A stretch of 35,333 bases of DNA, taken from NCBI RefSeq assembly GCF_025965215.1, contig NZ_JAOPXI010000014.1:1-35333 (forward strand), written 5' to 3'. The notes under the pieces are model-generated. The model was not told the origin of the DNA. It saw only the letters and a list, made by a program, of their open reading frames with translations, and ran no database searches. Origin of the DNA: Marmoricola sp. GTDB lineage: Bacteria; Actinomycetota; Actinomycetes; Propionibacteriales; Nocardioidaceae. Shown piece after piece: positions 31,021 to 33,794 of this stretch. The stretch's first letter is position 1, and each line of letters starts with the position of its first letter. Made by a program: the position numbers and the translations under genes.

Positions 31021-31093
31021 GCCGCCTTAGCTCAGTCGGTAGAGCATCTCACTCGTAATGAGAAGGTCGTCAGTTCGATTCTGACAGGCGGCT
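31021..31093 (+). tRNA. tRNA-Thr (anticodon CGT)
   Basis: GCCGCCT acceptor pairing with AGGCGGC (31086-31092); D-arm TAGCTCAGTCGGTAGAGC; anticodon stem TCTCA/TGAGA around CTCGTAA; T-arm GTCAGTTCGATTCTGAC. Confidence 0.93.
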
Positions 31094-31141
31094 CCGCGCA
31101 TGCGTCTGACTGCGGGCTTCGATGGCACGCACAGTGCTGAT

Positions 31142-31187
31142 TCGTAATGAGAAGGTCGTCAGTTCGATTCTGACAGGCGGCTCCGCG
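31142..31187 (+). repeat. 46-bp exact duplicate of the tRNA-Thr 3' half (att-like direct repeat)
   Basis: 31053-31098 = 31142-31187: TCGTAATGAGAAGGTCGTCAGTTCGATTCTGACAGGCGGCTCCGCG; no 5' half present. Confidence 0.93.
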
Positions 31188-31358: not shown

Positions 31359-32198
31359 ATGAACAAGTTGGCGACGTCTGGATCGACGATCCTGATCGCC
31401 GTGCTGGGATTTCTCGGGGTCGCGCCGGCGGCTTCGGCGTCCCCGAGCGCCGCCGTGCACCTCCATGTCAGCCGCCACGTCGTGGTAGCCGGCGAACCGC
31501 TGACCGTGACCGAGACCTCGAACGTCGTGTGCGACCTGTGGGTGAAGTGGAACGGGGATCTCCGGCAGACTCGCGGAAGGCGGCTGGTGGCGACCTACAC
31601 GGCGCCGCAGGTGACGCGCGCGACGAGGTTCGTGGTCCAGGGCATCTGCTTGCCGACGGGCCAGACATCGCCGGCGACCACGACATCGTCGGCTCGCTCG
31701 TCCAGCGCAGGCGCGACGATCAGCGTCGTCGTTCCGCTGACGGTGCGCGGCACGGTCACGATCACCGTCGTGCCGCCCGGCGGCGTCGTCAGCCCGCCGA
31801 GCCACCACCAGCATCCCGGCGGCATCGGCCTGCCCAACACGGGCGGGCCGCCATGGTGGCTGGTGATCGCAGGCGTGGGATGCGTCCTGGTCGGTTCGGT
31901 GGTGGTCCGGGCGGCCGAACGCCGGGGGACGGCACCCGACTACGCTGCGGCGTCATGGCCGACCCAGTGCTCCGCACCGACGTCCCCGCGCCGGGCCCGT
32001 TCTCGGCTCTGCTCGGCTTCCGCTACATCGAGGTCGCCGATGGTGTCGCCGTCGTCGAGGCGGATCCGGGGCCGGAGCACTGCAACGGTGGCGGCATCGT
32101 GCACGGTGGCTTCCTCGCGGCGATGCTCGACACCACCACCGGCTGGGCCGTGCACGACGGTGTTGCTCCCGGTGTTGCAGCGCCCCATGTCCAGCTGA
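31359..32198 (+). CDS. Secreted LPNTGG-motif (sortase-type) protein 1
   Basis: Signal peptide MNKLATSGSTILIAVLGFLGVAPAASA; VVCDLWVKWNGD...ATYTAPQVT; GLPNTGGPPWWLVIAGVGCVLVGSVVVRAAERRG. ORF continues about 95 aa past the TM into the next gene in another frame. Confidence 0.78.
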   Translation: MNKLATSGSTILIAVLGFLGVAPAASASPSAAVHLHVSRHVVVAGEPLTVTETSNVVCDLWVKWNGDLRQTRGRRLVATYTAPQVTRATRFVVQGICLPTGQTSPATTTSSARSSSAGATISVVVPLTVRGTVTITVVPPGGVVSPPSHHQHPGGIGLPNTGGPPWWLVIAGVGCVLVGSVVVRAAERRGTAPDYAAASWPTQCSAPTSPRRARSRLCSASATSRSPMVSPSSRRIRGRSTATVAASCTVASSRRCSTPPPAGPCTTVLLPVLQRPMSS

Positions 32199-32368
32199 GC
32201 GTCCAGTACGTCCGTGCGGCAGTGCCGGGCTTGACGCTCATCTGCCGTGGCAGTGCGATCGCGGTCGGACGCCGGATCGCGTCGGCCGAGGCCGAGATCA
32301 CGCAGTCAGGTCGGGTGGTCGCGCGAGCGGTCGCTAGTCACGCGGTGCTGGCCCCGGCGACCGATTGA
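31955..32368 (+). CDS. PaaI/hotdog-fold thioesterase family protein
   Basis: MADPVLRTDVPAPGPFSALLGFRYIEVADGVAVVEADPGPEHCNGGGIVHGGFLAAMLDTTTGWAVHD; start 31955, TACGCT -10-like box 31941-31946 suggests possible leaderless start. Confidence 0.87.
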   Translation: MADPVLRTDVPAPGPFSALLGFRYIEVADGVAVVEADPGPEHCNGGGIVHGGFLAAMLDTTTGWAVHDGVAPGVAAPHVQLSVQYVRAAVPGLTLICRGSAIAVGRRIASAEAEITQSGRVVARAVASHAVLAPATD

Positions 32369-32398
32369 GCAGCGGGTCGGAAAATCAAGGAATGAATG

Positions 32399-32462
32399 CG
32401 GACAAAGTACCCACAGACGAGATGTGGGTCACAGATTCGTGTGCATCGTGAGTCTTTGTCCG
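32399..32462. promoter_or_regulatory. Nested inverted repeats upstream of LPNTGG protein 2
   Basis: CGGACAAAG (32399-32407)/CTTTGTCCG (32454-32462) perfect 9-bp arms enclosing ACCCACA (32409-32415)/TGTGGGT (32423-32429). Confidence 0.45.
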
Positions 32463-32515
32463 TTATATGGTTGGACCTCGTTCGCGGGACCTGAGACGAA
32501 TCGTGGGGTTATCAG

Positions 32516-33064
32516 GTGATTAAGAAATGTGCATCTTTCAGCGTGGTCGTTCTGGTCGGCCTGTTGGCGGCAATCGGCTTCGCGCCGTCCGCTCAGGCCT
32601 ACCCCGAGGTGCTCATCAACCTCTCGGTCAACAAGCAGGTCCTGTACTCGGGCCAGACCTTCACCGCGACGGCCACGGCCAACGTCGTGTGCGACTGGAC
32701 GCTTGAGTGGAACGGTGACTCGCGCAATCGGACAGGTCACCGCGACTTCGTGACCACCTACACGGCTCCCGACGTCACCAAGGTCACCCCGATCCCGCTG
32801 CACGGCACCTGCGGCTACACCCTTCCGGACGGGGCGACTCCGGTCACCGGTCGGATCGCAGCGGGCGCCGCTCCGCACGTCACCTGGCGCCGGACGATCA
32901 TCGTCACGGTCCTGCCGACGAGCGGCACCGTCTCGCCGCCGACCCAGGGCGGTCTGCCGAACACGGGTGGTCCGGACCTGTGGATCCTGCTCGGCGGACT
33001 CGGGCTCGTCGCCGGTGGCTCGCTCGTGATCGCACGCTCCAAGCGCCGCGACCCTGCCGCCTGA
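32516..33064 (+). CDS. Secreted LPNTGG-motif (sortase-type) protein 2
   Basis: GTG start; signal peptide ...VVVLVGLLAAIGFAPSAQA; NVVCDWTLEWNGDSRNRTG...TTYTAPDVTKVT; VSPPTQGGLPNTGGPDLWILLGGLGLVAGGSLVIARSKRRDPAA. Confidence 0.87.
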   Translation: MIKKCASFSVVVLVGLLAAIGFAPSAQAYPEVLINLSVNKQVLYSGQTFTATATANVVCDWTLEWNGDSRNRTGHRDFVTTYTAPDVTKVTPIPLHGTCGYTLPDGATPVTGRIAAGAAPHVTWRRTIIVTVLPTSGTVSPPTQGGLPNTGGPDLWILLGGLGLVAGGSLVIARSKRRDPAA

Positions 33065-33239
33065 GCGTCTCCTCACCCGTGGTCTAGCGGGGTAGCGCCG
33101 ATTCCTCCCGATCGGCCGAATGCCCGTTATGGTCGCTGCGTGCCGTAACGAAGGCTCCGCGCCCTCGTTGTTCTCTGTGAGCGGCACCACAACGGTGCCC
33201 GAGCACGCTGGGCGCGTCATGACCACACGGGAGCAGTGC

Positions 33240-33794
33240 ATGAAGAAGCTGGTAGCCATCGGGGCCGCTGCCTTGGTTGCGATGTTCATGGCCGTGGGCT
33301 TGGCGCCCGCCGCTTCCGCCTACCCCGAAGCCGTCTGCAACCTCGTCGTCTCGCCCACCGTCGTGCACCCCGGCGACGTCGTGACCGTCCACTGCTCGCT
33401 CCAGACCATCGAGTCGCCACGCCTCGCCGGCCGTTCGGCGGCCTCGGCCGACACCCACTGGGTGGTCACCTTCGACGGCCTGACGCACACCGGTACCGGG
33501 GAGGCCTTCACCACGCACTTCACCGCGCCCCAGGTGACCAGCTCGACCGTCTTCAGCGTCCACTCCGTCGGTCACGACACAGTCACCGGGGTGAAGTGTG
33601 ACCGCAGCGTGAACGTCACCGACATCCCCGGTGGCACGGTCGTGTCTCCGCCAACCGGAGGCCTCCCGAACACCGGTGGCCCGGGTCTGATCCTGCTGAT
33701 CCTCGGCGTCTGTTTCGTCCTCGGCGGCAGTATCGCCATCCAGCGGTCCCGCAAGGGTCATCACGCGCAGTCGCTCCCGCAGCACCGGCACTGA
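33240..33794 (+). CDS. Secreted LPNTGG-motif (sortase-type) protein 3
   Basis: MKKLVAIGAAALVAMFMAVGLAPAASAYPEA...FTTHFTAPQVTSSTVF...VVSPPTGGLPNTGGPGLILLILGVCFVLGGSIAIQRSRKGHH; start at 33240 (signal peptide). Confidence 0.87.
   Translation: MKKLVAIGAAALVAMFMAVGLAPAASAYPEAVCNLVVSPTVVHPGDVVTVHCSLQTIESPRLAGRSAASADTHWVVTFDGLTHTGTGEAFTTHFTAPQVTSSTVFSVHSVGHDTVTGVKCDRSVNVTDIPGGTVVSPPTGGLPNTGGPGLILLILGVCFVLGGSIAIQRSRKGHHAQSLPQHRH

Follow-up and report, generated by a model that had tools for sequence, protein, structure and literature searches.

Three small genes in the window (the whole 35,333-nucleotide stretch analysed, from a contig of Marmoricola sp., a soil-type actinobacterium) encode members of a new, undescribed protein family of a familiar kind, namely secreted proteins carrying an Ig-like domain, as predicted or by homology, in front of an LPNTGG sorting signal, and a fourth copy elsewhere in the same genome lies directly upstream of a gene for a DUF4012 protein. 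We propose, with roughly even chances of the whole being right, that the three proteins (P1, P2 and P3) are sortase-anchored, disulfide-bonded Ig-like proteins which descend from a partner of DUF4012 and act with DUF4012 in the envelope or its surface polysaccharide. The link to DUF4012 lies outside the window and is invisible from the window alone. It is testable, and the conserved small secreted partner gives a handle on the role of DUF4012, with a possible bearing on how such bacteria build or hold surface polysaccharide. A preliminary description had reported three related secreted LPNTGG proteins, each with a signal peptide, a transmembrane (TM) helix and a basic tail; this observation is confirmed, coordinates included, and the interpretation attached to it is partly supported.

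Gene layout and protein architecture

The features discussed in this report are as follows.

31021-31095: tRNA-Thr(CGT)
31359..31934, + strand: P1, a small secreted protein with signal peptide, Ig-like domain (by homology), LPNTGGP, TM helix and basic end
31425..31811, + strand: P1 ectodomain, in the extent used for alignments, with cysteines in VVCDL and QGIC
31935..32198, + strand: run-on of the P1 frame, which enters the thioesterase gene and is not conserved as protein
31955..32368, + strand: thioesterase gene of the hotdog fold, lying between P1 and P2 and probably without a functional tie to them
32516..33064, + strand: P2, with a GTG start and the architecture of P1, closest to the DUF4012-linked group
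32594..32935, + strand: P2 ectodomain, a predicted Ig-like sandwich with cysteines in VVCDW and HGTC
33240..33794, + strand: P3, of the same architecture, with the conserved cysteine pair at other positions (in AVCN and VKCDRS)
33306..33644, + strand: P3 ectodomain, a predicted Ig-like sandwich

Common to the three proteins are a signal peptide, a beta domain of ~110 residues, a Pro-rich linker, a VSPP element, LPNTGGP, a TM helix (also present in the structure models of P2 and P3) and a basic end, and each thus combines the signal peptide, LPXTG motif, TM helix and basic end of a sortase substrate. The start of P3 is most likely at 33240 (MKKL, as in relatives). The genes had been described as standing three in a row, which overlooked the PaaI-type thioesterase ORF that separates P1 from P2. 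Likewise, P3 had been said to lack the VVCDxxxxWNGD segment; its conserved cysteines do sit elsewhere, but the W and an NG-like part are kept.

Homology and predicted fold of the ectodomains

By sequence comparison, the ectodomains of P1–P3 are homologous without the help of the anchor: when cut before LPNTGG, they matched each other in blastp at 1.8e-30 (P2/P1), 2.2e-14 (P2/P3) and 6.5e-9 (P1/P3), and hhalign among the three subfamily profiles gave 1.3e-32, 3.1e-25 and 6.2e-21. AlphaFold2, run on shallow input alignments (31 and 28 rows), predicted beta-sandwiches with high local confidence for both proteins, with blocks at pLDDT 94-98 across most of the length of the P2 ectodomain. Foldseek searches with these two models retrieved numerous domains of the Ig, FnIII and macroglobulin types, with moderate scores and no single known family being prominent. 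The Ig-like fold that had been suggested from the sequence is therefore borne out by the models of P2 and P3, and extends to P1 by homology only. In the alignments, the cysteines of the P1 and P2 types fall within V-x-C-x-W and G-x-C motifs, which vary slightly, and those of the nine P3-type proteins lie close to the N-terminus and in the final strand; the two placements presumably represent two disulfides. No Pfam or NCBIfam family matches the ectodomain, and only anchor models match the proteins convincingly.

Linkage to DUF4012 and possible role

The fourth copy, on contig C132, stands just upstream of a gene for a membrane protein with a DUF4012 match (PF13196, E 1.8e-45), on the same strand and with only 9 bases between its stop and the DUF4012 start. 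DUF4012 adjoins a gene of the family in 15 loci, including two from a second genus, and in 10 of the 11 loci checked it starts 7-18 bases after the stop of the family gene (no in-frame start was found in the eleventh). The C132 copy and the copies in relatives thus form a two-gene unit, in which the small gene lies directly upstream of DUF4012 on the same strand; the loci of P1–P3 themselves have no adjacent DUF4012 gene and form no such unit. A detector that recognises motifs only picked up small anchored ORFs in 19 of 52 DUF4012 loci (3.4 kb), compared with 1 of 91 stretches used as controls (Fisher 5e-9, a p-value which overstates independence, since the 52 loci share ancestry). Seven class-level DUF4012 loci belonging to other families have small neighbouring proteins of different sequence. 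In genus g6, a small secreted, unanchored protein is encoded directly upstream of DUF4012 in 9 loci, and three of the six that were scanned resemble Big_3_5, one of them over the cut-off. A Wzz or tyrosine-kinase-like ATPase is found near DUF4012 in five g6 loci, on the side opposite the small protein in several (as judged by reading, with four profiles tested). Sampling of 297 genomes in the class found DUF4012 in 138, and the EPS cluster of Bifidobacterium longum lists a DUF4012 gene (PMC5412050). In the genome studied here, the neighbours of DUF4012 resemble, by sequence (DUF4012 and two others scanned), lipid metabolism and ABC transporter genes, with no evident polysaccharide genes among them. 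Small secreted beta-rich proteins, anchored or not, were also seen beside DUF4012 in many actinomycetes (L064:4951-6714, L114-L190).

It is probable, though by no wide measure, that the family was originally a partner of DUF4012. In this proposal, P1–P3 would derive from, or share ancestry with, the gene that forms the two-gene unit; the small protein and DUF4012 would together build or hold the outer envelope or its surface polysaccharide, and the three genes of the window would be stand-alone paralogues with variation in the exposed domain. A role in surface polysaccharide, proposed because of the DUF4012 linkage, the Wzz and kinase-like neighbours in g6 and the B. longum EPS cluster, is possible, its chances lying somewhat below even. 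The broader idea, that actinobacterial DUF4012 and its adjacent small secreted Ig-like partner, wall-anchored in some genera and free in others, constitute a new module for the assembly or retention of envelope or surface polysaccharide, from which P1–P3 arose, is more tentative still.

Gram-positive bacteria often carry small wall proteins with Ig-like domains, and P1–P3 might simply be ordinary sortase-anchored adhesins or wall-decorating proteins, DUF4012 being a chance neighbour of one paralogue. The loci of P1–P3, devoid of DUF4012, and the many DUF4012 loci that show no anchored ORF agree with this alternative, to which we give a serious but distinctly less than even chance; against it, the pairing of the family with DUF4012 is found repeatedly in two genera, the genes being only a short distance apart, and other small secreted proteins stand beside DUF4012 in further genera.

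The open reading frame of P1 and selection on the family

No stop codon follows the basic tail of P1, and the frame remains open for 264 bases more, to 32198, overlapping the thioesterase gene over ~240 bases in a different frame. The nearest relative, G016, has the same arrangement, including the overlap, and a sequencing error as its origin is rejected on this ground. Between the window and G016, there are 4 changes in the run-on, each of them nonsynonymous in the frame of P1, and 4 in its thioesterase-frame part, each synonymous in that frame; because of this pattern, the extra residues of P1 do not look selected, and the thioesterase frame appears to be the selected one in the overlap. The run-on would be cytoplasmic and downstream of the sortase cut, and it may cost the cell little, because sortase would remove whatever follows LPXT.

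In the same comparison with G016, dN/dS is 0.28 for P1, 0.20 for P2 and 0.11 for P3, and computation indicates purifying selection on all three proteins between near relatives. The highest of these ratios and the run-on frame might suggest that P1 is a decaying copy that has lost its stop codon, but the ratio for its ectodomain is 0.20, its frame, cysteines and anchor are intact and G016 shares the arrangement, so that decay is improbable.

Sortases and probable anchoring to the cell wall

A sortase encoded elsewhere in the genome had been predicted as necessary for anchoring, and the genome search gave 10 sortase matches, 9 of them over the Pfam cut-off. Neither unrelated ectodomain folds nor a genome devoid of sortases, either of which would have refuted the earlier reading, was encountered. 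Classification, which covered the nine matches other than the one on contig C42, assigned one sortase to class E (182.5 bits; NCBIfam cut-off 160) and one to class F (167.3 bits; NCBIfam cut-off 166). One sortase-like protein (L077:7018-8049, G000:C136) appears to be without the catalytic cysteine normally found in TLTTC. P1–P3 would be exported by Sec, after which a sortase of class E or F would cleave the signal at LPNT|G and link the protein to the wall, so that a single compact beta-sandwich would sit on a short Pro-rich stalk. Judged from the sequences, the reading of P1–P3 as paralogous sortase substrates is well supported, and their anchoring to the wall is very probable. Another LPNTGG-anchored protein, with repeated domains, is encoded in the same genome (L082:914-2050, G000:C6). 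A literature search for sortase substrates of Nocardioides or Marmoricola returned nothing relevant.

Class E sortases are reported to favour LAXTG, though SrtE1 can accept proline (PMC5148588); the signal of P1–P3 is LPNTG and not LAXTG. The class E sortase of this genome (L072:1807-2547, G000:C171) has Phe at the position equivalent to Tyr229 of SrtE1, which is only a hint of a link to LPNTG. The Tyr229-to-Phe replacement was discarded as an explanation of LPNTG, since it is not a clean correlate: the relative G021 has Tyr at this position, yet carries the family.

The combination of LPXTG with an Ig-like domain, together with weak matches to pilin models on the anchor only, could also be expected of minor pilins or pilus-tip proteins built by a class C sortase. 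This is highly improbable, as none of the nine scanned sortases reaches the class C cut-off, the Pfam scan shows no pilin domain and each protein has only one small domain.

The tRNA-Thr gene, distribution and history of the family

The preliminary description correctly placed the genes next to a tRNA gene, but this proximity is incidental to P1–P3. The 3' part of the tRNA-Thr gene, from the anticodon onward (31054-31098), is repeated exactly at 31143-31187, 89 bases downstream, and is followed there by a terminator-like inverted repeat; the repeat insertion is absent from G016, and other relatives have one copy, a pattern that looks like the attachment-site scar of a lost integrated element. 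That P1–P3 were cargo of an element integrated at this gene, as the exact 45-base repeat might suggest, is highly improbable, given that G016 has P1–P3 in the same order without the repeat, that other relatives have a single copy and that P3 stays beside the SDR gene in nine relatives.

A scan of the genome collection yielded 9 loci, mostly from Marmoricola and Nocardioides and all, to judge by the record titles, from Nocardioidaceae or Propionibacteriales. Nocardioides marmorisolisilvae carries genes of the P2 and P3 types, and Nocardioides pocheonensis has the pair with DUF4012. The whole-protein query found matches in 19 of 99 relatives, some of them to the anchor only, and the ectodomain profile, run on 37 genera sampled from the order, found the family in 2, the same two being recovered among 137 in the class. 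Each of the P1, P2 and P3 types has members across a Marmoricola-type genus, and several genus-g1 genomes lack the family. In a tree with modest support, the P1 types group together, as do the P3 types, and P2 falls with the DUF4012-linked genes. In nine relatives, the P3-type genes have the same SDR and DapB-like neighbours, and in other genomes the copies of the family are dispersed, as is the fourth copy here. The earlier idea of a locally expanded cluster is not upheld: because the three types each recur across the genus, the family is old and partly clustered in the window, rather than the product of a recent local expansion.

Comparison with known systems

DUF4012 (PF13196) is a protein different from P1–P3 and is the genomic partner of the fourth copy. 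It is almost unmentioned in the literature searched, and no relative of it was found in the PDB. Its possible kinship with LytR-CpsA-Psr proteins was set aside, hhalign giving 3% probability with shallow profiles. Among structures, the Ig-like BIgI domain of streptococcal beta protein (PDB 6v3p) and R28 (8cxj) gave profile matches to the family and a weak Foldseek match; the profile matches take in the LPSTGG end of the crystallised chains and are inflated by it, and kinship with these proteins was rejected, since the ectodomain alone matches 6v3p at E 0.036. With the Big families, PKD and FnIII, P1–P3 share the predicted beta-sandwich, and no Big or PKD model reaches its Pfam cut-off on any of the three. 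With the LPXTG anchor proteins (PF00746, TIGR01167), they share the signal peptide, LPXTG, TM helix and basic tail; PF00746 scores P2 and P3 under its cut-off and is absent for P1, and on TIGR01167 P1 and P3 fall just under the cut-off and P2 exceeds it (23.4 vs 15.9 bits).
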